Shown: in pieces, positions 190 to 12,134 of the stretch | Layout of the letters: each line of letters opens with the position of its first letter | Position numbering within the stretch: the stretch's first letter is position 1 | From: Hyphomicrobiales bacterium | GTDB lineage: Bacteria > Pseudomonadota > Alphaproteobacteria > Rhizobiales > Aestuariivirgaceae | Direction of reading: 5' to 3' | Length of the DNA: 12,134 bases | Assembly: GCA_027051995.1 (NCBI GenBank) | Contig: JALUFY010000216.1 | Coordinates: 1-12,134 of the forward strand | Notes under the pieces: model-generated | Databases searched by the model: none | The model's input: only the letters and a program-made list of their open reading frames with translations | Told to the model about the DNA's origin: nothing | Made by a program: the position numbers and the translations under genes

Positions 190-840
190 TCACAAATAGG
201 GATCGCCTTTTTCGCGCTTTCCGGCAACCCGCGCCGGAGAACCAAGAGCTGTCGTGCGTGGCGGAATATCTCCGTGCGCATAGGAGTTCGCGCCGAGTAT
301 GGCATCCTCCCCGATGTTCACGCCATGGCGCAACACCGCGCCGATGCACACGGCGGCCCGTTTGCCAATCCGGCACCCTCCGCCCGTGACCGCTCCCGGA
401 GCAAGGGAGGAAAACGATTCCATGACGACATTGTGCTCCACGATGGCCGCGCTGTTGACGATGCAATGCGCGCCGATGCGGGCTCCGGCTCCCGCCACCG
501 CGTTCTGCATGATTGCGGTGCCCGGGGCGATTTGCGCAAAGGACGAAACGGAGCTTGAGGGATGCCGCAATATGGCGAACCGCGCATCCGGCAGGGCGTT
601 GCGCAGTTCATTGACCGCCCGCTGGCGTCTCGCATTGTCCCCGATGGCGGCGAAGAAACGCACGCTGCCTTCAGCATGTTCATCCGGCGCGGAAGAAACA
701 ACCGGACAGCCCATGAAAGTCTCTCCCGCCTTCTCCGGATCAACGAAAACGATGCGCGAAAAGGCCCCGCAGGCCGTGGCCGTTTCCATCAGGCTGGCCG
801 CATGGCCGCCCGCGCCGAGCATCACGAGTTTCAGCCCCAT
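190..840 (-). CDS. legH: NeuD/LegH-type sugar O/N-acetyltransferase (left-handed beta-helix)
   Basis: The 216-residue product belongs to the NeuD/PglD family. Residues 1-90 form the small Rossmann-like domain with LVMLGAGGHA (6-14) for sugar-nucleotide binding. Residues about 100-205 are hexapeptide repeats of a left-handed beta-helix (for example IAPGTAI, ARIGAHCIV, VNIGEDAILGANS), the acetyl-CoA site. His136 in the VEHN motif fits the family's catalytic base. In legionaminate synthesis LegH acetylates the 4-amino group made by LegC, giving the 2,4-diacetamido-2,4,6-trideoxy sugar that LegG then uses. An upstream in-frame ATG exists at 858, but AAGGAGG lies inside that extension, 7 bases before the ATG at 840, so 840 is the start. 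The gene begins 39 bases after the legI stop. NeuD relatives sometimes O-acetylate sialic acids instead, but the presence of LegB and LegC favours LegH. Confidence 0.88.
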   Translation of the reverse strand: MGLKLVMLGAGGHAASLMETATACGAFSRIVFVDPEKAGETFMGCPVVSSAPDEHAEGSVRFFAAIGDNARRQRAVNELRNALPDARFAILRHPSSSVSSFAQIAPGTAIMQNAVAGAGARIGAHCIVNSAAIVEHNVVMESFSSLAPGAVTGGGCRIGKRAAVCIGAVLRHGVNIGEDAILGANSYAHGDIPPRTTALGSPARVAGKREKGDPYL

Positions 841-879
841 GGCGCGCCCTCCTTGCACTCGCGGGTGTTTGCGTGCCTT

Positions 880-1980
880 TCACGACAATATCTCATCTTC
901 GCCGATCCCTTCATCCGCCGCGTAATCCCGTTTCGCCCTCCGGCCCAGCAGATCCCAGTAAGACATGGGCGAGAGGCCCTCCGCCGGCCGCTTGGCGGTG
1001 AGGTTGTCCTCGCTGAAGGCCTCTCCCTCGCGGATGTCGCGCGCCGCCACCAGGCTCTTGCGGGCGATGCGCGCGTTCGCCGCCTCCGCCGGGGCGGGCA
1101 CCTTCAGCCCCGGCCGCATGGCCTGTTCCACCTCGCGGATGGCGCGCACCATGGCGGCCAGTTCATCGGGCTCCAGGGAAGCGGCGTGATCCGGCCCGGG
1201 CAGGGTTCTGTCCAGCGTGAAATGCTTTTCGATCACCTTCGCCCCGCGCGCTGCCGCCGCGATGGGCACGGCGATGCCCGGCGTGTGATCCGAATAGCCC
1301 GCGGGCAGGCCGAAGGCCGCCTCCAGAAGCTCCATGACCGGCAGATGCACATCGGCGAAGGGGGCGGGATATTCCGTCGTGCAATGCAGCAAGGTCACCT
1401 TGCCTTGCAGCCCCCGGCGCGTCTTCGGATCGCTCCAGGCCTCCCGGAAGGCGGCCCGGGAGGGTGCATCTCCGCCGCCATAACCGAAGGCCAGCACGCC
1501 CAGCGCCTCCTCGATGTCGCCCAGTGTGCTCATGCCGGTGGAGAGAATCACTGGCCGCCCGGCGCGCGCCACGCGCAGCAGCAGCGGCGCGTTGGTGATC
1601 TCGCCGGAGGGCAGCTTGATGAGCGGCAGATCAAGTTCATCGATGAGAAAATCCGCGCTGGCCAGATCGAAGGGCGTGGACAGATAAAGGATGCCGGTGT
1701 CCGCGCAATGTTGGCGCAGCGCCCTGTGTTCATCGAAGCTCAGCTCCAGCTTGCGCACCATCTCCAGCTGGCTTTCATCCGCTCCGGTGGCCTGTTTCTG
1801 ATAACCCGCCTTTTGCGCCCGCGCGCTGATGACCGCTTCGGCGCGGAAGGTCTGAAACTTCACCGCATCGGCCCCGGCATCCCTGGCCGCGCCCGCCAGC
1901 CGTTTCGCCATGTCCAGCGAGCCGTTGTGATTGACCCCGGCCTCGGCGATGATGAAGACGCCATCCTCTTTTCTGTTCAT
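880..1980 (-). CDS. legI: N,N'-diacetyllegionaminate synthase, NeuB family
   Basis: The 366-residue protein condenses phosphoenolpyruvate with the 6-deoxy-diacetamido-mannose analogue released by LegG to give legionaminic acid. The TIM-barrel part begins with IIAEAGVNHNGS (10-21) and DAVKFQTF (38-45). It continues with KLPSGEITN (122-130), HCTTEYPAP (199-207) and YSDHTPG (229-235). His232 and His253 (EKHFT) match the metal-binding histidines of NeuB. A C-terminal SAF/antifreeze-like domain (about 305-366, KSLVAARDI) completes the NeuB architecture, and the length is normal. The linker between about 166 and 195 is of the size seen in LegI-type synthases. The ATG start overlaps the legG stop by four bases (ATGA), which indicates translational coupling. 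Sialic acid or pseudaminic acid synthase are the alternatives. Pseudaminate is unlikely because its clusters use PseB/PseC and PseG rather than a NeuC-type enzyme. Confidence 0.93.
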   Translation of the reverse strand: MNRKEDGVFIIAEAGVNHNGSLDMAKRLAGAARDAGADAVKFQTFRAEAVISARAQKAGYQKQATGADESQLEMVRKLELSFDEHRALRQHCADTGILYLSTPFDLASADFLIDELDLPLIKLPSGEITNAPLLLRVARAGRPVILSTGMSTLGDIEEALGVLAFGYGGGDAPSRAAFREAWSDPKTRRGLQGKVTLLHCTTEYPAPFADVHLPVMELLEAAFGLPAGYSDHTPGIAVPIAAAARGAKVIEKHFTLDRTLPGPDHAASLEPDELAAMVRAIREVEQAMRPGLKVPAPAEAANARIARKSLVAARDIREGEAFSEDNLTAKRPAEGLSPMSYWDLLGRRAKRDYAADEGIGEDEILS

Positions 1981-3161
1981 GCGCCCTGATCCTCTCCCGG
2001 AAGGTCATGGAACCGCTTGGCCGCGCCCTTCGTGATGTCCATGGTCTTGAGTATATCGCGGATGCGCCGCGCGGCGTCCGCCTCGCCATAGAGCGAGACG
2101 GTATCGGGCAATCGGGCCTGAAAACCGGCATCCAGCGCCCGCCTGATGGCCTCCACGATTTGCGCCGTATCGGCCCGGGGGCAGTTGATGACGGATGAGG
2201 CCATCAGCCGCCCCTTCTGGCGCGCGCCGATGTTGACGGTCGCTACCTTCAGCGCCGGCGCCTCGATGATGCCCGACGAGGAATTGCCGATGACGGCGGC
2301 GCAATGCTTCATGGCGCTCAGGTATCGCAGGTGCCCCAAGGATGTCACGCAGCGCGCGCGCCCGCCGCTGGCCGCCGCATATGCCCGCGCCAGCTCGTTG
2401 ATGGCGCGCCCGCCCATGTCGGCATTGGATTCGGTTATCAGCACGGAATGACCGGGAAAAGCGTCCAGCGCCGCCAGCAGGGCGCGCATGTCCCGCGCCG
2501 CGTCATGCCCGCCCTGCGTCACGGGATGCCAGGTCACCAGGAAATAGGGCTTGTCCTGTGGCAGGCCGCATTCGCGGCGGATGTCCGCCGCGCGCATCAG
2601 CGGCAGCTTGCGGATGTTGTCCAGCGCCGTATCGCCCACGTTGAACACATTTTCGGGCGGCTCGCCAAGCTGGATGATGCGCCGCCGGTAAGACTCGGCG
2701 GCGGCGAAATGCACCCGCGCCATCTTGGTGATGCAATGGCGGATGGTGTCGTCGATCGCGCCTTCCGTCACCTCGCCGCCGTTCAGATGCGCCAGCGGAA
2801 TGCCGAGAAAGAAGGCGGCCTGCGCGGCGGCCAGAATCTCGAAGCGGTCGCCCAGCACCACCACGACATCGGGATCAAGGCGCGCGAAAGCATCCGCGAA
2901 ACCAATGAGCCCCAGCCCGGTGGACTTGGCCACCGCCACGCGGGTGTCGGACGACAGCAGCATCTCCACCTTTTCGTTGATGACAAATCCGTCCGTTTCG
3001 ATTTCACGGTATGTCAGGCCGAATTCCGGCGACAGGTGCATCCCGGTGACCGCGATTTGCAGATCGAGCGCCGCATCGTCGCGGATTTCCTCCATTACCG
3101 GGCGCAACAGGCCGTATTCGGCCCGCGATCCCGTCACCACGCAGATTTTCCGCCCGCTCAT
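1977..3161 (-). CDS. legG: NeuC/LegG-type hydrolysing UDP/GDP-sugar 2-epimerase
   Basis: The 394-residue protein is a GT-B-like hydrolysing 2-epimerase of the NeuC branch. It removes the nucleotide from the diacetamido-trideoxy-glucose precursor and inverts C2 to give the manno sugar used by LegI. Visible signatures are VVTGSRAEYGLLRPV near the N-terminus (8-22), VLGDRFEIL (102-110), HLNGGEVTEGAIDD (125-138), GDTALDNI (177-184), TWHPVT (210-215) and the nucleotide-binding GNSSSGIIEAP (292-302). The same frame stays open for 117 codons upstream, but that part lies inside legC and has no family resemblance. The ATG at 3161 gives the canonical N-terminus and overlaps the legC stop as ATGA. The 3' end overlaps the legI ATG in the same way. 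NeuC (UDP-GlcNAc 2-epimerase for sialic acid) has the same fold, and the LegG role comes from the flanking legB/legC genes. Confidence 0.92.
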   Translation of the reverse strand: MSGRKICVVTGSRAEYGLLRPVMEEIRDDAALDLQIAVTGMHLSPEFGLTYREIETDGFVINEKVEMLLSSDTRVAVAKSTGLGLIGFADAFARLDPDVVVVLGDRFEILAAAQAAFFLGIPLAHLNGGEVTEGAIDDTIRHCITKMARVHFAAAESYRRRIIQLGEPPENVFNVGDTALDNIRKLPLMRAADIRRECGLPQDKPYFLVTWHPVTQGGHDAARDMRALLAALDAFPGHSVLITESNADMGGRAINELARAYAAASGGRARCVTSLGHLRYLSAMKHCAAVIGNSSSGIIEAPALKVATVNIGARQKGRLMASSVINCPRADTAQIVEAIRRALDAGFQARLPDTVSLYGEADAARRIRDILKTMDITKGAAKRFHDLPGEDQGA

Positions 3162-4321
3162 GCGTCTTCTCCCAGATAGGCGCTGCTGGGGATGTTGATG
3201 ATCCGACGCGCCAGCGAATGGGCCACGTCCAGATCCGCACGCGGCGCCCCGGCATGGGGCGGCTGTTCGCTGAGCAGCCCCCACACCGGGCGCGACATGA
3301 AGCCCGCCGCGTTCAGCGCTTCGAGAATGCCGTCCCTTTGATCCTCCAGCCCTTCGTCCAGCACAAGGGTTTGCAGCCAGAAATTGCTCTCGCAGCCGTC
3401 CGGCTCGTCCATCAGGGACACCCCCTCCACATCCGCGAAGGCCCGGCTGTATCGCTCGTGCAGCGCCCGCTTGGAGCGCAGCATGTCCTCCAGCGCCTCC
3501 AGCTGCGCGCACCCCAGGGCGGCGTTGAGATTGGGCATGCGGTAATTGAAGCCGATCGCGTCATGGCGGTATTCCCAGGGATGGGGAACCTTGGCGGTCG
3601 TCGTCAGGTGTCTGGCCCGCGCCGCAAGCTGAACGTCATTGAACAGAATGGCCCCGCCGCCGCCGGTGGTGATGATCTTGTTTCCGTTGAAGCTCAGCGC
3701 CCCCGCCAGACCGGAAGTGCCCGTGTGCCGCCCGCCCATGCGGCTGCCCAGGGATTCGGCGGCGTCTTCCACCACGGCCAGATGAAAATCCTCCGCCACC
3801 CGCATGAGTTCGTCCATCCGCGCCGGATGGCCGAAGACATGCACCGGAACCATGGCCCGGATGACGCGCCCCGTCTCGCGGTTGACGCACAGGCCATCGC
3901 GGATGTCGCTGATTTCCTCCAGATGGGCGCGCAGCCGTTGCGGGCAAAGCCCTCCGTGGCCGGGTTCGCTGTCGGCGAAATGCGGGCTGGCCCCGCAATA
4001 GCTCACCGCGTTGGCCGTGGCGATGAAGGTCAATGCCGGAACGATCACCTCGTCCCCGCGCCGCACGCCCGCCATCAGCAGCGCCACATGCAGGGCCGCC
4101 GTGCCGTTGACCACCGCGACGGCGGCTTTTGCCCCGGTGAAGGCGGCCAGCTCCTGCTCGAAGCGCGTGACATGGGCGCCGACGGAGGAGACGAACGTGC
4201 TGGCTATGGCGTCATCCACATAGGCCTGTTCATTGCCCCGGAACACCGGCGCATGCAGCGGCGCGCCGCCCCCCGCGACTTCGGAAACCGCGGCAATGAT
4301 GCGCTGCGCCACAGACGTCAT
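3158..4321 (-). CDS. legC: LegC-family PLP-dependent sugar aminotransferase
   Basis: The 387-residue protein belongs to the DegT/DnrJ/EryC1 aminotransferases. It transfers an amino group from glutamate to C4 of the 4-keto-6-deoxy sugar produced by LegB. The fold-type I landmarks are visible: VNGTAALHVAL (71-81) for phosphate binding, VPALTFIATANAV (94-106), VVEDAAES with Asp186 for the pyridine nitrogen, and SFNGNKIITTGGGG, whose Lys215 would hold PLP. The C-terminal part has NYRMPNLNAALGCAQLE, the usual subunit-interface motif. The ATG at 4321 is chosen because GAGGAG lies 4-9 bases upstream and MTSVAQRII matches the family start. An in-frame upstream extension to 4402 has neither feature. 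It follows legB by 82 bases, the widest internal gap of the operon, in which I see no hairpin or promoter. Confidence 0.92.
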   Translation of the reverse strand: MTSVAQRIIAAVSEVAGGGAPLHAPVFRGNEQAYVDDAIASTFVSSVGAHVTRFEQELAAFTGAKAAVAVVNGTAALHVALLMAGVRRGDEVIVPALTFIATANAVSYCGASPHFADSEPGHGGLCPQRLRAHLEEISDIRDGLCVNRETGRVIRAMVPVHVFGHPARMDELMRVAEDFHLAVVEDAAESLGSRMGGRHTGTSGLAGALSFNGNKIITTGGGGAILFNDVQLAARARHLTTTAKVPHPWEYRHDAIGFNYRMPNLNAALGCAQLEALEDMLRSKRALHERYSRAFADVEGVSLMDEPDGCESNFWLQTLVLDEGLEDQRDGILEALNAAGFMSRPVWGLLSEQPPHAGAPRADLDVAHSLARRIINIPSSAYLGEDA

Positions 4322-4403
4322 GCTTTCTCCTCGTGCCCGTTTGCACCGCCGGTATACAGGCGCGCGGGATTGCGGGCAATGGCGCAAGCCCTCGCGGGCC
4401 ACC

Positions 4404-5381
4404 TCAGACGTTGTAGATATCCGCCTTGTAGCGCGCCAGATTCTCCGGCCTGGTTATCCAGTCAATGGTCTCCCGAAGCCCCCTGCGGATATCATATTCA
4501 TGGGTGAACCCGGTGAGCGACTTCATCAGGGTGTTGTCGCAGCACAGCCGGAAGACTTCGGATTTTTCCGGCCGCAGCCTCTGTTCATCCGTCTCGAAGG
4601 TCACGTCCGCGCCCATCAGCTCCCTGATGAGATTCAGGGTATCGCCCACCGAAATCTCCTCGCCGGAGCCGATGTTGACCGTCCTGCCCACCGCCTCCTC
4701 GCAGCGCGCCAAGGCCAGAAAGCCCCGGCAGGTGTCGGTGACGTAGTTGAAATCGCGCGTCGGCGTCACATCGCCCAGCTTGATGGTCTTCGCGCCGCTG
4801 GCGATCTGGGTGATGATGGTGGGGATGACGGCGCGGGCCGACTGGCGCGGGCCATAAGTGTTGAAGGGCCGCGCCACCACCACCGGCAGGCCGAAGCTGT
4901 TGTGAAAGCTCATGGCCATGGCGTCGGCGGCGATCTTCGTGGCGCTGTAAGGCGATTGCGGCTGAAGCGGGTGCTTTTCGTCGATGGGCACGTATCGCGC
5001 CGTGCCATAGACCTCGCTGGTGGAGGTGTGAATGACCTTCGCCCCGTGCGCGCGCGCCGCCTGGCAGATGTTCAGCGTGCCCCTGATGTTGGTGTCCACA
5101 TAGCTGTCCGGCGCGGCGTAGGAGAAGGGAATGGCGATCAGCGCCGCCAGATGAAACACCGTGTCAACGCCATCCACGATATCGCGGCAGAAGGCCGGAT
5201 CGCGCACGTCTCCGCTGACGATCTCGATGTCGTCGCGGCAGCCGGCCTCTTCCAGCCAGCCCCAGCTGTTGAAGGAGTTGTATTGCGCCAGCGCCCGCAC
5301 ATTGAGCCCCTCGGCATGCAGAAGCTCCGTCAGATGCGAGCCGATGAACCCGCCGGCGCCGGTGACAAGCACGTTTTTCAT
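4404..5381 (-). CDS. legB: LegB-type NAD-dependent nucleotide-sugar 4,6-dehydratase
   Basis: The 325-residue extended short-chain dehydrogenase starts the pathway by converting GDP- or UDP-GlcNAc to the 4-keto-6-deoxy sugar. The NAD site is VTGAGGFIGSHL (6-17, GxxGxxG). HTSTSEVYGT (118-127) carries the active-site Thr-x-Glu, with Ser122 at the place of the Asp of RmlB-type TDE motifs. The catalytic Tyr145 and Lys149 sit in PYSATK. Further family motifs are RPFNTYGPRQSARAVIP (171-187) and the sugar-binding RDFNYVTDT (209-217). It begins 15 bases after the stop of the preceding gene, and a GAAGGA overlapping that stop is the only ribosome-binding candidate, at a rather long spacing. This retaining-type dehydratase, not the PseB type, argues for legionaminate over pseudaminate. 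Substrate nucleotide (GDP or UDP) cannot be read from the sequence. Confidence 0.93.
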   Translation of the reverse strand: MKNVLVTGAGGFIGSHLTELLHAEGLNVRALAQYNSFNSWGWLEEAGCRDDIEIVSGDVRDPAFCRDIVDGVDTVFHLAALIAIPFSYAAPDSYVDTNIRGTLNICQAARAHGAKVIHTSTSEVYGTARYVPIDEKHPLQPQSPYSATKIAADAMAMSFHNSFGLPVVVARPFNTYGPRQSARAVIPTIITQIASGAKTIKLGDVTPTRDFNYVTDTCRGFLALARCEEAVGRTVNIGSGEEISVGDTLNLIRELMGADVTFETDEQRLRPEKSEVFRLCCDNTLMKSLTGFTHEYDIRRGLRETIDWITRPENLARYKADIYNV

Positions 5382-5396
5382 CTCGGATTCAGTCCT

Positions 5397-6713
5397 TCAG
5401 GGTTGCAGGTGATACATGGCCCGCCCGATGCGCCGGGCGCGCGGCGCGGGCAGCCCGGCCAGGGCGGCGATGCCTTCCAGCCTCCCTTGCAGCCGGGCGG
5501 CGGAAACATCGGGAAAAATGGATTTCTGGAACGCCTTGCGCCAGCGCCAGCGGCGGAAGAGCAGGGAGGGCTTCCAGGCGGGCGCATCATTTCGCGGCGC
5601 AAGGGCGGCGATTTCGGCGGCGATCCTCTCCGCCGCCAGGGGCCCCTCCTGGGCGGCGAAGAACCGGTGAAAGGTCTTCACCATCTCCCGCGTGCGCCAT
5701 GCGTCCGGATCAGCGCGCCCTTGCAAAACCTCTCCCGCCCAGCGCACCAGCTCGTCCAGATCGCCGGTGCGGCGGCTGACCCGGCCGGAGAGCAGGAATT
5801 CGTCATTCATGATGTTGCGCGATGCATCGAAGCTGATGGAGGGCACGCCCAGGGCGAAGGCCTCCACGCCGGTCGAGCAGCTCGTGTGCACCAGAAGACG
5901 GGAGGCCAGAATCCACGGCGCCGCCGCGCCGCCCGCATGGAATTCCACATTGGGCAGATCGCGCAGGGCCTCGCTGTAAGTTTCCAGCTTCTCGATCGGG
6001 TGCGGGCGCACGATGATCAGGGTATCGGGAAAGGCCCGCGCCAGCCGCCGCACGATGGCGCGCGCCGCCTCGATGTTCTCCAGACTGAACGTCTTGTAGT
6101 CCTCCGCCAGACGCACGTCCTCCGGCCTTGATGCGTCCAGCCGCCCGTCGCGGAACAGCCCCTCGATGAATCTGTCGGCGGACTTGTTGGCCGAATTGGC
6201 CAGCCCGGAATTGGTGTTGTAGAGAATGAACCGGCCATGCCGCTTGCGGATGTCGTCCGCCTGACCGGCGTAATAGCCGCGCAGTTCCTCGCGCAGCAGA
6301 TCCCAGCGCGGGTTGCCGGTGATGGCGCATTTCTCCACATGCCCCGGATAGACCGCCGCCAGCGCGTCCGCGTGCGCCTGCCCCAGGCAGAACAGCCTGT
6401 CGCAATTGCCGATGGCCTCCCTGGCCACCCAGCGCAAGCCTCCGCAGCCTTCACCCAGGCCGGTTACTTCCTCGTCAATGGCGCAGACCCTGTGGCCCAG
6501 TTCGCGCGCCTTGCGCATGTAGATGGCGTCGCCCGGCATCAGCGTCTTGAACATCCACACGCCACGGGGCACATGAGCGATGTTTCTTTGCAGCAGCCAC
6601 TTCTGCCCCAGAATGGTCTCAACGCCCTCGCGCGCCGCGAAAAGCGCCGTCAGCAGCCGCGAATCCATCTCGCGCGCGGCGATTTCCATCGGCATGTAGA
6701 GATAACGGGACAT
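5397..6713 (-). CDS. Surface carbohydrate biosynthesis protein, GT-B-like; candidate nonulosonate transferase
   Basis: The 438-residue protein resembles the family annotated as 'surface carbohydrate biosynthesis protein', often found next to nonulosonic acid genes. Landmarks are MPMEIAAREMDSRLLTAL near the N-terminus (8-25), the acidic AIDEE (78-82), TGNPRWDLLREEL (132-144), RFILYNTNSGLAN (161-173), IVRPHPIEK (234-242) and VHTSCSTGVEAFALGVPSI (275-293). The acidic, His-Pro and Ser/Thr-rich elements occur in the same order as in GT-B polysialyl- and KpsS/KpsC-type transferases that use CMP-activated nonulosonates or Kdo. That makes a CMP-legionaminate transferase plausible but unproven. There is no signal peptide or membrane segment, so it should be cytoplasmic or peripheral. 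The reading frame extends to a TTG at 6764 inside the upstream gene. I prefer the ATG at 6713 because it gives the family N-terminus, although no clear Shine-Dalgarno precedes it. Confidence 0.75.
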   Translation of the reverse strand: MSRYLYMPMEIAAREMDSRLLTALFAAREGVETILGQKWLLQRNIAHVPRGVWMFKTLMPGDAIYMRKARELGHRVCAIDEEVTGLGEGCGGLRWVAREAIGNCDRLFCLGQAHADALAAVYPGHVEKCAITGNPRWDLLREELRGYYAGQADDIRKRHGRFILYNTNSGLANSANKSADRFIEGLFRDGRLDASRPEDVRLAEDYKTFSLENIEAARAIVRRLARAFPDTLIIVRPHPIEKLETYSEALRDLPNVEFHAGGAAAPWILASRLLVHTSCSTGVEAFALGVPSISFDASRNIMNDEFLLSGRVSRRTGDLDELVRWAGEVLQGRADPDAWRTREMVKTFHRFFAAQEGPLAAERIAAEIAALAPRNDAPAWKPSLLFRRWRWRKAFQKSIFPDVSAARLQGRLEGIAALAGLPAPRARRIGRAMYHLQP

Positions 6714-6757
6714 GAAACGGCGGCTTTCGGCGGGGAACGGAGCTTGCGCCCCATGCG

Positions 6758-7912
6758 CTAGCAAATCCCGTCCAGCTTCTCAAGCACGGCCTTCTCCCAC
6801 AGCGGCCCCATCCTGGCCCATGTCAGGCGCGAGGCCATCTCCGCCGCCGCCTGGCCCATGTCCCGCCGCAGCGCGGCGTCTTCAATGAGACGTCCGGTTT
6901 TGTCCGCCAGTTCCTCGTCCGACCAGACGACGAACCCGTTGACGCCATCCTCGACGCCGGGCGCTCCGTAATTGCCAAAAATGACGGCGGGCAGACCGCA
7001 GGCCATGGCCTCCCGCGTCACCTTTGGCGTGCCTTCGGATTTTGATGGCAGCACATGAACGCAAGCGCGCCGGTATGTCTCCGCCAGTCCTTCCGGTGAT
7101 GTCGTTCCCGGCAGGGAAAGATTCGTCACGCCTTGCCGCTTCATTTCACTTTCCAGACGGCCCCGCAGCGCTCCATTGCCGAACCAGACAAAATCCGCCC
7201 CGGGAAAAGCCTTCGCCAGCCTGATGAAAACCTCCGGGCGCTTTCTCTCGTTCAGCGTGCCCGCGCAGACCACGAGCGGCCTTTCCGGCTCCTGGCGGCC
7301 GCGCGCGTGATAGATGGCGCCATCATGGCCAAGCGGGATGGTGAGCACGGGTTTCCTGTAATATTCCTCCGCCAGCCACGCCAGCAGCGGGCTGATGGCG
7401 ATGATCAGACTGGCCTGGCCATAAATCCATTCCGCGGCGGGCGCGCTTTTGTCCAGAAACACCTCGTAACCGGCGAGGGCGGAAAAATGCTTCTGGCGCG
7501 CGGCATCTCCCACCAGCCCCTCAAGCGTGGCGATGATGGGAACCTCCCGCCCAAGCCTCTTGCGCCAGCGCAGGCCAAGGGCGTCCGGCTTGCGCGCGTC
7601 GGGATAGAAAATGGCATCCGCGTCCTGCAGATAATGAAACGGCAGTTCCCATTTCGACAGGCTGTTGAGCAGCTTCGCGGGCAAAACGCCGCGTCTTGCG
7701 CCTTGCCCCCCGGCATATCTGGGCGGCAGCGGAGAGGCGAACCGCCGCAGCCGGACGCGCGGATTGGCGGCGGCGGCGGGATCGGGTTCTTCATGATGAA
7801 ACACGCTCCACACATGCCCCGGCGTGGTGAAATGGGGCAGCATGCTTTTCAGGCTCAGTTCCTGGGCGCGAATATGGCGCCGGTCAACAAAACGCGGAAT
7901 GAGAATGTTCAT
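6758..7912 (-). CDS. Glycosyltransferase, GT-B fold, GT4-like
   Basis: The 384-residue protein has the C-terminal domain of GT4 retaining glycosyltransferases. VVCAGTLNERKRPEVFIRL (214-232) supplies the basic residues that contact the donor phosphate, and FVWFGNG follows. HVLPSKSEGTPKVTREAMAC (286-305) contains the E-x7-E motif (Glu293, Glu301), and GLPAVIFGNYGAPGVEDG forms the donor-binding loop. The N-terminal acceptor domain (1-185) is divergent and does not reveal the acceptor. It is the first gene of the legionaminate operon and probably builds a neutral-sugar part of the same glycan. The ATG at 7912 has AGGGA about 7 bases upstream. The frame continues to a GTG at 7942 without a better site. 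The stop lies 44 bases before the next gene. Donor and acceptor are unknown. Confidence 0.85.
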   Translation of the reverse strand: MNILIPRFVDRRHIRAQELSLKSMLPHFTTPGHVWSVFHHEEPDPAAAANPRVRLRRFASPLPPRYAGGQGARRGVLPAKLLNSLSKWELPFHYLQDADAIFYPDARKPDALGLRWRKRLGREVPIIATLEGLVGDAARQKHFSALAGYEVFLDKSAPAAEWIYGQASLIIAISPLLAWLAEEYYRKPVLTIPLGHDGAIYHARGRQEPERPLVVCAGTLNERKRPEVFIRLAKAFPGADFVWFGNGALRGRLESEMKRQGVTNLSLPGTTSPEGLAETYRRACVHVLPSKSEGTPKVTREAMACGLPAVIFGNYGAPGVEDGVNGFVVWSDEELADKTGRLIEDAALRRDMGQAAAEMASRLTWARMGPLWEKAVLEKLDGIC

Positions 7913-8076
7913 TTGATTTCCCTGAAAACCATAGGCCAGCACCCTCGCGCTTTCCCCTGTCGCCGCACCCGGCTGGCAGAGAACATGAAAGCATCACGCC
8001 CCGGGACACAACAGCATCCATTGCCCGCCGTCAATGCGGCGCGCGCGCCCTGACCGTTCAACCGGCATGCGCGGGC
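7913..8076 (-). promoter_or_regulatory. Upstream region of the legionaminate operon; promoter not resolved
   Basis: This non-coding stretch lies between the terminator of the RTX gene and the first operon gene, so it should carry the operon promoter. The best -35 match is TTGACG (8034 down to 8029), but 17 bases further only TTGTGT is found, which is a poor -10. A perfect 12-base palindrome GGCGCGCGCGCC lies at 8038-8049. I see no ORF, RNA gene or recognised operator here, and the exact start point is not supported. Confidence 0.3.
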
Positions 8077-8137: not shown

Positions 8138-10936
8138 TCAGACGATGATGTCGTCCTCGGTGAAGTCCGTTCCAAGCGTCATGCTCTCGATGTAGAGCAC
8201 ATCGCCTGCCGCGCCGCCGGGGGCGGAGGCAAGATCGAACTTCACAGCGCCCCAGCCGGTCTGGCTGGCGAAGGCCATGGCGGCGGCCTTGCTCGCGAAG
8301 CCGTAAGCCGTCAGGTCGATCACGTCGTGGCCGTCCTCGAACTGCCGCACCCGGTCGGCGCCATGGCCAGAGGCGAAGACGAAGGTATCCACCGCCCCGT
8401 CGGCAGAGCCAAGGAGCACATCATCGCCCGCGCCGCCGTCTAGCCTGTCCGCGCCGCCCTCGCCAAACAGCCAGTCATTGCCATCGCCGCCGTTCAGCGT
8501 GTCGTTCTGGCCGCCGCCGAACAGCGTGTCCGCGCCATCGCCGCCATTGAGGACGTCAACGCCCAGATTGCCGCGCAGCCTGTCATCGCCCGCGCCGCCA
8601 TTAAGCGTGTCGTTGTCGCGCCCGCCATAGAGGAGATCGTCACCCCCATCTCCATAAAGCGTGTCGCGGCCCGCGTAGCCGAGCAGAGTATCGCCGCCTC
8701 CGCCGCCGTGCAGATCGTCGGCGCCGTCCTTGCCCTTGAGCTTGTCCGCGCCGTCCTCGCCGGAGAGGAAGTCATCGCCCGCGCCGCCGATCAGCCGGTC
8801 ATCGCCGTCGCCGCCGAGCAGGGAATCGTTGCCCGCGCCGCCGTAGAGGTAGTCCACGCCGCCATCGCCGCTCGCCGCGTCGTCGCCATCGCCGCCGAAG
8901 AGCACGTCGTCGCCGTCTCCGCCATGGAGCACGTCATCGCCCCCCTTGCCCTTGATGCGGTCGGCTCCCGCGCCGCCATCGATGGTATTGGCGGCATTGC
9001 TCCCGGACAGCCGGTCATTGTAGTTCGAGCCCGTCAGATTCTCGATGCTTGTGAGCGTGTCCACGCCCGCGCCGCCGGTGTCGATGCCGGTATGCTGCAG
9101 ATAGACGCGCACGGCGGAAGGCGCCGTGGCGTAGGATGCGGTATCGGAGCCCGCCCCGCCATCGATGTGATCGTCGCCGCCGCCGCCTTCGAGCACGTTG
9201 CCGCCGGCATCGCCGGTGATCGTGTCGTCATGGGCGCTGCCAACCACGTTTTCGATGGAGACAAGCTGTTGCGTGACGTGTTCGCCCGTGGCCGGATTCG
9301 TTACCGCCGTGGCCTGATCGGACGGGGCGGACAGATCCACGGTCACCGCGACGGGCGCGCCGGAGAAATCGGCGGTGTCGCTTCCACTGCCGCCGTTCAG
9401 GGTGTCGTCGCCCATGCTGGCCACGAGGACGTCATCGCCCGCGCCGCCGTGGATCGTATCCACGCCGTCGCCGCCAATGACCTTGTCATCGCCGCCCAAG
9501 GCGTCGACAGTTTCACCACTGTCATTCAGGTATGCGATGTCATCGCCTTCGGTAAAACGCGAATCGCCGACAACGGTGAATCCATATGGTGTGGAGGGGT
9601 CAGCTCCTTCGGCCAGATTGGCGAAAATGTCCGTGCCCTCAGCCGTGCCGTCGCTGCGCCAAGGTTCCTCGCCTTCACTGGCGTTGCTGCCGCCATAATA
9701 GAAATAATTGCCGAAGCGGGCCGCCGACCCAAACCACAGAATGCTTCCAACGGGCCCAGCCCAGGTGTCTTCGACCATCACAGTGCCGGCCTCCGTGCCA
9801 TCGGAAACCCACAGCTCATTGCCATGTGCACCATCGTCGGCGGCGAACCACAGCTTGCCATTGGCCGAAAAAATTCTTCCCTGTGGCAATATCCCGCTGC
9901 CCCCGCCCGGATTAATATCCTTGACCATGTGTGTTCCGGCCGCCGTACCGTCGGTGCTCCACAGCTCCATTCCGTGGACGCCGTCATTGGCGGAGAAGTA
10001 GAACCGGCCATCGAATTCCACGCCATTCGCCAGACCGTTCGGGAAATCTGTTCCGCTGCCGCTGCCCGGATTGATGTCCTTGACCATGTGCGTGCCGGCG
10101 GTGGTGCCGTCCGTTATCCACAGCTCATTGCCATGGGTTCCGTCATCAGCGTAGAACATCATGCTGGAGCCGAAGGCGCCAAAGAGCCCCGGCATGGGGG
10201 TGAAGCCGGTGGTGGATGGATTGATGTCCTTGAGCATGAAGGTGCCGGCCGCCGTGCCGTCGCTCACCCAGAGCTCGTGGCCGTGTGTCCCGTCGTCAGC
10301 GGCGAAATAGAGCTTGTTTCCGGCCGCCAGTTTCTCGTGAATGCCGCTGCCACCGGAACCGGGATTGATGTCCTTGACCATCACGGTGCCGGCCGCCGTG
10401 CCGTCCGTCTTCCACAGCTCGTCGCCATGATCGGACGCGCCGGAGCCATCATTGGCCGTGAAGAAGGCCTCGGAGCCGATGGGCACGATGCTCCCGCCCC
10501 AGTAGGAACTCTCTCCGGCATGAACATTGATGTTCTTGAGCATGCTCGTGCCGGCCGCCGTGCCGTCTGTCATCCACAGTTCGCTGCCATTGGCTCCGTC
10601 ATTGGCGAAAAACAGCGCCTCGCCGCCAAAGGATGTGATGGCGCGGGGATCGGCATCATACGGGCCTGAATAGATATCCATGAGCATCGTGGTGCCGGCG
10701 CTCGTGCCATCGGTGATCCACAGCTCGCGCCCATGCACGCCATCATCCGCGGAGAAAAGCAGATCATCGCCAAAGGGCGTCAGTTCAGTGGGATTGGACC
10801 AGCCCAGGCCCGGATTGATATCCTTGACCAGTTGCAATGTGGTACCGTCAAAGGTCCACAACTCCATGCCCGATCCAATTGTCGTACCGGTTCCGTCGTC
10901 CTGATGCTGATCAGCAGTGAAATAAAGACGTGACAT
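8138..10936 (-). CDS. Secreted ELWxxDGT-repeat / RTX calcium-binding protein (type I secretion substrate)
   Basis: The 932-residue protein has three parts. Residues about 25-446 hold nine ELWxxDGT(x)AGTxMVKDINPG repeats, the last degenerate (EPWRSDGT). Such repeats look beta-propeller- or beta-sheet-like, but no activity is established that I can name. Residues about 480-843 are RTX nonapeptides (GGxGxDxLx) that bind calcium and fold outside the cell, with two SIENxxGSxxDD spacer modules. Residues about 844-932 (DTFVFASGHGADRV to DDIIV) form the C-terminal cap and uncleaved type I secretion signal. There is no N-terminal signal peptide, which fits ABC-transporter export. The start at 10936 has AAGGGAG 6 bases upstream, and the in-frame extension to 10975 lacks one. 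No transporter genes are in the window. Adhesin, matrix or S-layer-like roles are possible, and its target is unknown. The flanking glycan operon raises the possibility that it is glycosylated. Confidence 0.88.
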   Translation of the reverse strand: MSRLYFTADQHQDDGTGTTIGSGMELWTFDGTTLQLVKDINPGLGWSNPTELTPFGDDLLFSADDGVHGRELWITDGTSAGTTMLMDIYSGPYDADPRAITSFGGEALFFANDGANGSELWMTDGTAAGTSMLKNINVHAGESSYWGGSIVPIGSEAFFTANDGSGASDHGDELWKTDGTAAGTVMVKDINPGSGGSGIHEKLAAGNKLYFAADDGTHGHELWVSDGTAAGTFMLKDINPSTTGFTPMPGLFGAFGSSMMFYADDGTHGNELWITDGTTAGTHMVKDINPGSGSGTDFPNGLANGVEFDGRFYFSANDGVHGMELWSTDGTAAGTHMVKDINPGGGSGILPQGRIFSANGKLWFAADDGAHGNELWVSDGTEAGTVMVEDTWAGPVGSILWFGSAARFGNYFYYGGSNASEGEEPWRSDGTAEGTDIFANLAEGADPSTPYGFTVVGDSRFTEGDDIAYLNDSGETVDALGGDDKVIGGDGVDTIHGGAGDDVLVASMGDDTLNGGSGSDTADFSGAPVAVTVDLSAPSDQATAVTNPATGEHVTQQLVSIENVVGSAHDDTITGDAGGNVLEGGGGDDHIDGGAGSDTASYATAPSAVRVYLQHTGIDTGGAGVDTLTSIENLTGSNYNDRLSGSNAANTIDGGAGADRIKGKGGDDVLHGGDGDDVLFGGDGDDAASGDGGVDYLYGGAGNDSLLGGDGDDRLIGGAGDDFLSGEDGADKLKGKDGADDLHGGGGGDTLLGYAGRDTLYGDGGDDLLYGGRDNDTLNGGAGDDRLRGNLGVDVLNGGDGADTLFGGGQNDTLNGGDGNDWLFGEGGADRLDGGAGDDVLLGSADGAVDTFVFASGHGADRVRQFEDGHDVIDLTAYGFASKAAAMAFASQTGWGAVKFDLASAPGGAAGDVLYIESMTLGTDFTEDDIIV
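8423..8989 (-). repeat. Uninterrupted run of 21 RTX nonapeptide repeats (27-bp DNA period)
   Basis: From NTIDGGAGA to DRLDGGAGD the protein keeps a strict 9-residue register for 21 units, giving a 27-base period in the DNA rich in GCCGCCG. Two shorter RTX groups precede it (about 9346-9496 and 9140-9240), separated by SIENVVGS and SIENLTGS modules. Several units depart from the consensus at Gly or Asp positions (GKDGADDLH, GYAGRDTLY, GNLGVDVLN), so not every turn need bind calcium equally. Confidence 0.9.
9599..10864 (-). repeat. Nine ELWxxDGT coding repeats
   Basis: Each unit of about 45-55 residues contains SADDGxHGxELWxxDGTxAGTxMVKDINPGSG followed by a variable hydrophobic strand. The spacing varies, so this is a diverged protein repeat rather than a young DNA tandem duplication. 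The fourth unit carries a short insertion, SGASDHGD, before its ELW. The last unit is worn (EGEEPWRSDGT, then a shortened tail) and leads into the RTX part. Confidence 0.9.
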
Positions 10937-10993
10937 CTTCCGCTCCCTTGCGAAGCAGCGCCCAAAACGGCGCAAAGCGCCCCCTTCGCATTC

Positions 10994-11043: not shown

Positions 11044-11168
11044 TTTTGTGCATCTTTTTCAAAGAAGTATGTTGGCCGCACCGGCGGCGGCGGGTTACAA
11101 TGAGGCGGCCCCAGGAAATCGGACAGAGGGTTAATGTGTATTCCGCCAGCAAATGGAGGAATACGGAT

Positions 11169-11472
11169 ATGAGCAAACGTCGCCGGTTTATGGCTGATTT
11201 CAAGGCCCGTGTGGCGCTGGAGGCGCTTCGGGGTGACCGGACGATCCAGGAGATCGCGGCCCGGCACAAGGTGCACCCCAACCAGGTGAGCACATGGAAA
11301 CGTCAGGCTGTTGACGGTCTTGGCGAGGTGTTCTCGAACGGCGCGGAACGCCGTCAGATCGACCGGGAAGCAGAGATACACGATCTTCACGCCAAGGCAT
11401 GTGCCCGCGCAGGCGGGTATCGGCCAGTTGACGGTGGAACGGGATTTTTTGGCCAGAGGGCTCAAGCGATGA
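11169..11472 (+). pseudogene. IS3-family orfA (HTH subunit), interrupted by a 22-bp palindromic insertion
   Basis: The product begins MSKRRRFMADFKARVALEAL and contains IQEIAARHKVHPNQVSTWK, the HTH of IS3 OrfA that binds the terminal repeats. GGAGG lies 9 bases before the ATG. The frame is normal up to HDLHAK (ending at 11396). There 22 additional bases intervene, after which the expected end IGQLTVERDFLARGLKR-stop is found in a different frame (11419-11472). The present reading frame instead crosses the insertion and continues straight into the orfB frame, losing the leucine-zipper-like tail that OrfA needs to dimerise. Without the insertion orfA and orfB would overlap as ATGA. Confidence 0.85.
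11397..11418 (-). repeat. 22-bp palindromic mini-insertion inside orfA
   Basis: The segment is absent from the reading frame expected for IS3 OrfA. It folds as CCCGC (11404-11408), loop GCAG, GCGGG (11413-11417), extended by a G-T and a T-A pair. On the minus strand its core reads CCCGCCTGCGCGGG followed by CA, almost the same as the second insertion at 11862. The exact ends are uncertain by a few bases, and no target duplication is evident. Confidence 0.78.
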
Positions 11473-12134
11473 GCCGGGAGGAGCGCAAGGGGATGATCCG
11501 GCGCGGCCATCCCGATCTGAGCTTGAGCCGTCAATGCCGTCTTGTCTCGATCAGCCGGTCTTCATTCTATTATGAGCCGAAAGGAGAGAGCGAAGCGAAC
11601 CTTGCCCTCATGGAGCGCATCGACAAGCTGTTCCTCAAATATCCATTCCATGGCTCGCGCCAGATGGCCCGCCAGTTGCGGCGTGATGGGCTGCGCGTTG
11701 GCCGTCACCGGGTCCGGCGGCTGATGCGTTTGATGGGCTTGCAAGCCATCTATCAGGCGCCGGGGACCAGCCAGCCGCACCCGGAACACCGGATATATCC
11801 ATATCTGCTCAAGGGTTTGGCGATCACCCGCCCCAATCAGGTCTGGTGCGCGGACATCACCCCCGCCTTCGCGGGGGCAGGCTCTATATCCCGGTGCAGC
11901 GCGGCTTCCTGTATCTGGTGGCCATCATGGACTGGGCGAGCCGCCATGTGCTCTCATGGCGATTGTCGAACACCATGGATGCAGACTTCTGCATCAAGGC
12001 CCTGAAAGATGCCCTGACCCATTATGGCAAGCCGGACATCTTCAACACCGATCAGGGCAGCCAGTTCACCTCGCAAGGCTTCACTGGTGCGCTTGATGCG
12101 GCGGACATCAAAATCTCCATGGACGGGCGGGGCC
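11469..12134 (+). pseudogene. IS3-family orfB (DDE transposase), frameshifted by a 23-bp palindromic insertion; 3' end outside the window
   Basis: The frame from ATG 11469 encodes MSREERKGMIRRGHPDLSL, an HTH_21-type region with YPFHGSRQMARQLRRDG, and the start of the integrase core, RPNQVWCADIT, whose Asp (11853-11855) is the first catalytic residue. Immediately after ADIT, 23 extra bases shift the frame and produce a stop at 12003-12005. The normal sequence resumes in another frame from 11885 (YIPVQRGFLYLVAIMDWASR). It reaches FNTDQGSQFTS with the second catalytic Asp (12050-12052) and stays open to the window end at ISMDGRG. The catalytic Glu lies beyond the window. Apart from the insertion the coding sequence is intact, so the damage looks recent. 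Confidence 0.87.
11862..11884 (+). repeat. 23-bp palindromic mini-insertion inside orfB
   Basis: These 23 bases separate two halves of a conserved DDE-domain segment (ADIT and YIPVQRG). With two C from the flank they form a perfect 7-base stem CCCCCGC / GCGGGGG around CTTC (11860-11877). The core CCCGCCTTCGCGGG followed by CA matches the 22-bp insertion at 11397 in inverse orientation. The length is not a multiple of three, so it inactivates the transposase. Ends are ambiguous by one or two bases. Confidence 0.82.

Follow-up and report, generated by a model that had tools for sequence, protein, structure and literature searches.

Precise insertion of a REP-like hairpin of about 22 bp at two sites in an IS3 transposase gene

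At the end of the window (the whole stretch of 12,134 nucleotides analysed here, contig C216), an IS3 transposase gene is interrupted by two short, related, hairpin-forming segments, which raises the question of what these segments are and how they entered the gene. The window comes from a MAG that is 88.6% complete and comprises 2.14 Mb on 457 contigs; only 1 copy of the IS was found in it. The element lies on the plus strand from 11101, a left edge taken from the similarity to relatives (which begins at 11101 in seven of nine compared and at 11098 in one, the last being truncated), to 12134, where the contig ends inside it; our analysis is therefore limited to its left part, from about 11101. 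The interrupted read-through frame scored 130 bits against NCBIfam NF033516 (IS3 family transposase), below the 160-bit cut-off, and the intact relative P0003 scored 334 bits, over the cut-off, which identifies the host as an IS3 OrfA/OrfB pair. No closer copy of the element was detected in the genus genomes searched. The contig end at 12134 falls in a conserved stretch of the IS3 transposase, a position that hints at similar IS copies lost in assembly.

Insert 1 comprises 22 bp at 11397-11418 and reads ACCCGCCTGCGCGGGCACATGC on the minus strand, with its hairpin core at 11404-11417 and its tail at 11397-11403; its placement is unique. Insert 2 comprises 23 bp at 11862-11884 on the plus strand, with the hairpin-strand sequence CCCCGCCTTCGCGGGGGCAGGCT and the core at 11862-11875, and can be placed equally well at 11861-11883. 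The original prediction, made from the letters of the DNA, had located both segments here and had described a shared core with 13 of 14 bases equal in opposite orientations, and in both respects it was correct: the cores CCCGCCTGCGCGGG (minus strand) and CCCGCCTTCGCGGG (plus strand) are identical at all but 1 of 14 bases. These are the sole exact core matches in the window, where five matches were found with up to two mismatches (shuffle mean 1.64). Both inserts also fold as proposed, each with a 5-6 bp stem, a 4-nt loop and an unpaired tail, at energies of -6.1 kcal/mol for insert 1 and -7.3 kcal/mol for insert 2; the corresponding z-scores (-1.66 and -1.73) are modest because the inserts are very short. 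No known RNA family was matched in the window. The tails, CACATGC in insert 1 and GGCAGGCT in insert 2, differ, and the inserts thus represent two subtypes of one mini-element, the consensus of which on one strand is T(A/C)CCCGCC-TKCG-CGGG(C/G)RCAKG, about 22 bp. Its layout is a CCCGC-4nt-GCGGG hairpin, with a stem of 5-7 bp and a 4-nt loop, followed by a one-sided CAKGC tail.

The OrfB start up to insert 2 (11469-11861, plus strand) was used as a query for IS3 relatives, of which 437 were found and the best 80 compared in pairwise alignments. Among these best 80, a 22-base gap starting at 11396-11398 (insert 1) was present in 58, a 23-base gap starting at 11860-11862 (insert 2) in 72, and both gaps were exact in 53; relatives without an exact gap were mostly more diverged, with misplaced gaps, or lay on contigs that were too short (not checked row by row). 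The two inserts are the only places at which the window carries extra bases relative to these 80, and the core CCCGCCTNCGCGGG was found at none of the 80 loci. About ten of the closest relatives (∼73-80% DNA identity) show the empty sites GCCAAG^ATCGG and ATCAC^CTATATC, the best plasmid match agrees with the summed insert length (967 query bases vs 922), and the peptides encoded by both inserts are absent from seven of seven aligned protein relatives. Inserts 1 and 2 are real, clean insertions with empty sites in relatives, which bears out the original prediction that they had entered the transposase gene separately. It is very improbable that the segments are an artefact of assembly or binning and are absent from the living genome. 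Such a case could point to the fragmented MAG, to the contig end inside the IS and to the single source contig behind the protein cluster, but two separate, exact-edged segments of a repeat that is found independently in other genomes are clean gains of a kind that assemblers do not make, and that cluster holds three member sequences, though all may be from this one contig.

The insertions alter the reading of the transposase. OrfA starts at 11169 and OrfB at 11469, and a run of six T at 11445-11450 (plus strand) is presumably, by analogy with IS3 biology, the -1 frameshift site that joins them. Since insert 1 measures 22 bp (1 mod 3), it joins the OrfA frame to the OrfB frame upstream of this run, giving an open frame of 278 codons (11169-12005, plus strand) that runs from OrfA into OrfB via insert 1 and bypasses the putative slippage site. 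Insert 2 throws the frame out again just past the first conserved D in OrfB (WCADIT). In the stretch 11397-11468, a -1 frameshift from OrfA to OrfB is no longer needed with insert 1 in place.

As had been anticipated, the hairpin core is dispersed in the source genome, with 28 places in the MAG vs 4 for a reversed control pattern. The assignment to a REP type stood in that the hairpin is REP-like, but not as an account of the dispersed copies, because 23 of the 27 distinct core copies are CGTC-tagged REPs rather than the inserted element. When the core plus tail CCCGCCTKCGCGGGNRCAKGC (21-mer) was sought in the MAG with up to 1 mismatch, four copies were obtained, three of them exact: insert 1, insert 2, one on C432 and one on C245. 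At up to 3 mismatches the 20 matches equalled the control (17), and the 16 further copies at 2-3 mismatches were therefore left unused. Two of the four copies lie in this IS3, within 490 bp of a 2.14-Mb genome (chance ∼0.003 by our own arithmetic), and the other two in the loop of a CGTC-type REP; the proposed targeting of IS3 DNA is accordingly not general. The low copy number in the genome, with no datable event, likewise did not bear out the description of the repeat as actively spreading. Of the two outcomes that the prediction had named as refuting it, neither occurred: the core is missing from all 80 relatives, and the genome holds more copies.

CGTC-tagged REPs form a described superfamily that includes the Neisseria dRS3 and Rickettsia RPE-4/RPE-6 repeats (Di Nocera 2013, PMC3733652). 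In the parts of that paper considered here, they are defined by the CGTC tag, a stem of 8-9 bp with AT first pairs, a 4-5 nt loop and a CCA tail, and they appear to have no dedicated transposase (PMC3733652). The mini-element resembles them as a short, GC-rich palindrome with a 4-nt loop that is dispersed in alphaproteobacteria and sometimes intragenic (as far as the same parts of PMC3733652 describe them), and its hairpin core is the one carried by the CGTC REPs of its own genome. It differs in the lack of the CGTC tag and CCA tail, in its shorter stem (5-7 bp) and other, one-sided conserved tail, and in residing both in a gene and within CGTC REPs. An unpaired CGTC tag was absent from both inserts and from the filled REP copy L025/L031, and a GTAG tetranucleotide next to the hairpin was absent from both inserts. 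We consider it unlikely that the inserts are truncated, ordinary intragenic CGTC-type REPs of the dRS3 or RPE kind, that is, pieces of the abundant CCCGC-GAAG-GCGGG repeat carried into the IS by whatever agent mobilises CGTC REPs. The core shared with 23 of 27 distinct copies in the genome would fit this origin, and intragenic CGTC REPs are reported in the parts of PMC3733652 considered; against it, the inserts have neither CGTC tag nor CCA tail, and their own conserved CAKGC tail is found again in other genera, with identical ends that random fragments of CGTC REPs would not share.

Nesting in other palindromic repeats provided further before-and-after pairs. A first, guessed pattern for the outer REP yielded no un-nested copy; a better pattern located CGTC-like REPs at 53 places in the MAG (control 0), together with an empty partner, and such REPs are present in all 11 genus genomes. 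The empty site (L260, on C21) reads CGTCATACCCGGC^CTTGTGCCGGGTATCC, and the filled copy (L032, on C245) adds TACCCGCCTTTGCGGGCACAGG at the mark. Removal of these 22 bp from L032 restores L260 with 0 mismatches over 28 bp and no target duplication, the next placement having 1 mismatch. The second filled copy (L025/L031) differs from the empty REP by 1 mismatch, and a similar filled/empty pair in G084 by 4. Another outer repeat, GAAAACCGNNNYCCACTTTTC (GAAAACC...TTTTC, from other families), hosts the mini-element in G070, G125 and G129. In G070 we counted 87 empty copies with no more than 2 mismatches, the control giving none, whereas the four genus genomes in which this repeat was sought do not have it. 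We examined 30 filled copies of this type in five genomes, 21 of which could be fitted within 3 mismatches. The best insert length among these 21 was 22 bp in 12, 21 bp in 8 and 24 bp in 1, and of the 12 copies best fitted at 22 bp, 9 had a single placement and 3 were unique at 22 bp with 0 mismatches. The fixed position inside REPs may reflect the amplification of one composite and not repeated insertion. In G003, G010 and other genus genomes, the CGTC-type REPs occur as opposed pairs ∼60-300 bp apart.

Empty versions are known for five site types, two of them related CGTC loops, and in each the right junction on the hairpin strand can be placed just before CT, mostly CTT, or, on the other strand, 3' of (A)AG. 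The bases at the junction are CTTG and CTTGAT in the REP loops, CTTTTC at a further site type, CTTGG at insert 1 and CTATAT at insert 2 (for one of the two possible placements). Among the copies for which no empty site is known, several continue instead with CATG, CATT, CCCG or similar, not CT, the C being demanded by the search pattern itself. Relative to the canonical 22-mer, insert 1 is shifted in register by one base, and an A adjoins the junction in 57 of the 58 relatives with the exact gap. Wherever the empty version is known, 22 bp (or 21-23) have been gained, with no duplication of the target and no visible loss. We also considered the apex of an inverted repeat as a general target and rejected it: in a permutation test 18 of 80 copies reached p<0.05, and the IS3 sites, at 0.34 and 0.49, did not exceed random flank pairs in palindromy.

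Gains that are precise, leave no duplication and fall at a short motif would fit single-strand transfer in trans. We put a probability of roughly 0.5 on the reading that the inserts are copies of a non-autonomous, REP-like hairpin of about 22 bp without GTAG or CGTC tags, inserted precisely in trans. Such a mini-element would be mobilised as single-stranded DNA by a putative strand-transfer enzyme that recognises the hairpin and acts in the manner of TnpA-REP or of the IS200/IS605 HUH enzymes, and the sites used would often be the loop edge of other REPs. The IS3 copy would have received two hits in opposite orientations, one from each subtype, and would have been left without an intact transposase frame. 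TnpA-REP enzymes are reported, in the excerpts of PMC8266576 drawn on here, to cleave REPs at CT next to the hairpin, which the CT junctions of the mini-element recall. More speculatively, and with considerable doubt, we suggest a third kind of tagged REP, of about 22 bp and with a CAKGC/GCMTG tail, which would live mainly inside other palindromes (a hairpin parasitising hairpins), be moved in trans by a putative single-strand transposase cutting at CT and be capable of entering coding DNA, as in IS3.

The original prediction had also proposed a RAYT-like enzyme elsewhere in the genome as a possible mover. A search for Y1_Tnp (PF01797), which as a positive control gave matches in 5 of 14 named genomes including E. 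coli, returned 0 matches in the MAG (88.6% complete) and in 0 of the 11 genus genomes. Among 150 relatives, the domain was present in 3 of 17 carriers of the mini-element vs 26 of 133 others, with no association, and a RAYT-like mover is unsupported. In a single case that we do not count as evidence, a Y1_Tnp frame in G116 (L236, C6) runs through a composite hairpin copy ∼340 bp from the domain.

The main rival to single-strand transfer is a mechanism without a dedicated enzyme: by replication slippage or template switching, a REP hairpin that lies nearby or has annealed would be copied into another hairpin-prone or a CT-rich site, aided by matches of 1-4 bp. The absence of a Y1 gene from the MAG and the 11 genus genomes is in keeping with it, as are the GGCT that flanks the insert on both sides in the filled REPs, the spread of fitted lengths over 21-24 bp and the statement, in the parts of PMC3733652 considered, that CGTC REPs lack a dedicated transposase. 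The fits of GAAAACC copies at 21 and 24 bp, together with the 23 bp of insert 2, also speak against a single fixed length. However, insert 1 and the REP pair of the source genome are uniquely placed, with no matching end bases, the lengths cluster at 22, and the IS3 sites lack the excess of palindromy over random flank pairs. On balance we regard this mechanism as possible but rather unlikely.

Beyond the source genome, the 21-mer at up to 1 mismatch gave 82 matches in 17 of the 150 relatives, vs 8 matches in 8 genomes for the reversed control; G116 has 23 matches, G070 has 22 and G084 has 9. Single-copy matches at 1 mismatch (e.g. G066, G101 and G103) may be due to chance, as the control matched in 8 of 150 genomes. 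Among 385 genomes from the class, 10 contain the exact 21-mer, as do 5 of 398 from the phylum, with no match for the control. G567, from another class, has 24 matches that are embedded in a longer palindrome, and their kinship with insert 2 is uncertain for that reason. Viral contigs contributed 25 matching stretches, 7 loci of which carry the subtype of the source genome inside a CCCCG...GCGGGGATGACG palindrome. In the viral contigs L286, L297, L298, L303 and L307, the insert-2 subtype stands near the start of an apparent phage gene and is followed by an in-frame TAG. L056/L068 is a possible further intragenic copy of the mini-element.

Among known systems, the mini-element belongs with the REPs, yet it fits neither published tag definition. 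It is like the GTAG REPs of the TnpA-REP (RAYT) system in having a hairpin with a one-sided tag, a length of ∼20-25 nt and CT at the junction, as far as the excerpts of PMC8266576 go, and unlike the GTAG REPs and the REPtron in lacking GTAG and in the absence of a Y1 transposase from the 11 genus genomes. The GTAG-14 REPs of Bradyrhizobium and R. palustris, with long self-complementary loops, likewise hold a second palindrome in the loop; in the parts of PMC3733652 considered, they are described as a loop variant with a GTAG outer repeat, and the comparison rests on that description. Yeast mitochondrial GC clusters and double-hairpin elements are reportedly also very small mobile hairpins, in organelle DNA and of unrelated sequence (PMC4478555). 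A MITE was considered and rejected: there is no target duplication, and inserts of 22-23 bp in all do not carry the terminal inverted repeats of a parent IS. The small dispersed repeats of Nostoc, attributed to Elhai in 2008, are reportedly mobile repeats of 21-27 bp found inserted in other repeats; they would be alike in size and nesting and differ in sequence and phylum, the likeness being one of description.

We found no published description of the mini-element in the literature searched. For a palindromic element of 22 bp, exact before-and-after sites are now available, including one pair within a single genome, along with a candidate junction motif; together these would allow a direct test of enzyme-driven single-strand transfer against replication errors. 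They also provide a lower limit, 22 bp, for the size of precise insertions in bacteria.

Two further features of the window lie on the minus strand. A probable nonulosonic-acid surface sugar cluster spans 190-7942, with genes for a PglD-like acyltransferase, NeuB, a UDP-GlcNAc 2-epimerase, a DegT aminotransferase, an NAD epimerase, an unassigned protein and a glycosyltransferase. At 8138-10975 lies the gene for a 945-aa protein with 11 stretches of RTX calcium-binding repeats, the N-terminal half of which consists of ELW..DGT repeats of ∼50 codons each.
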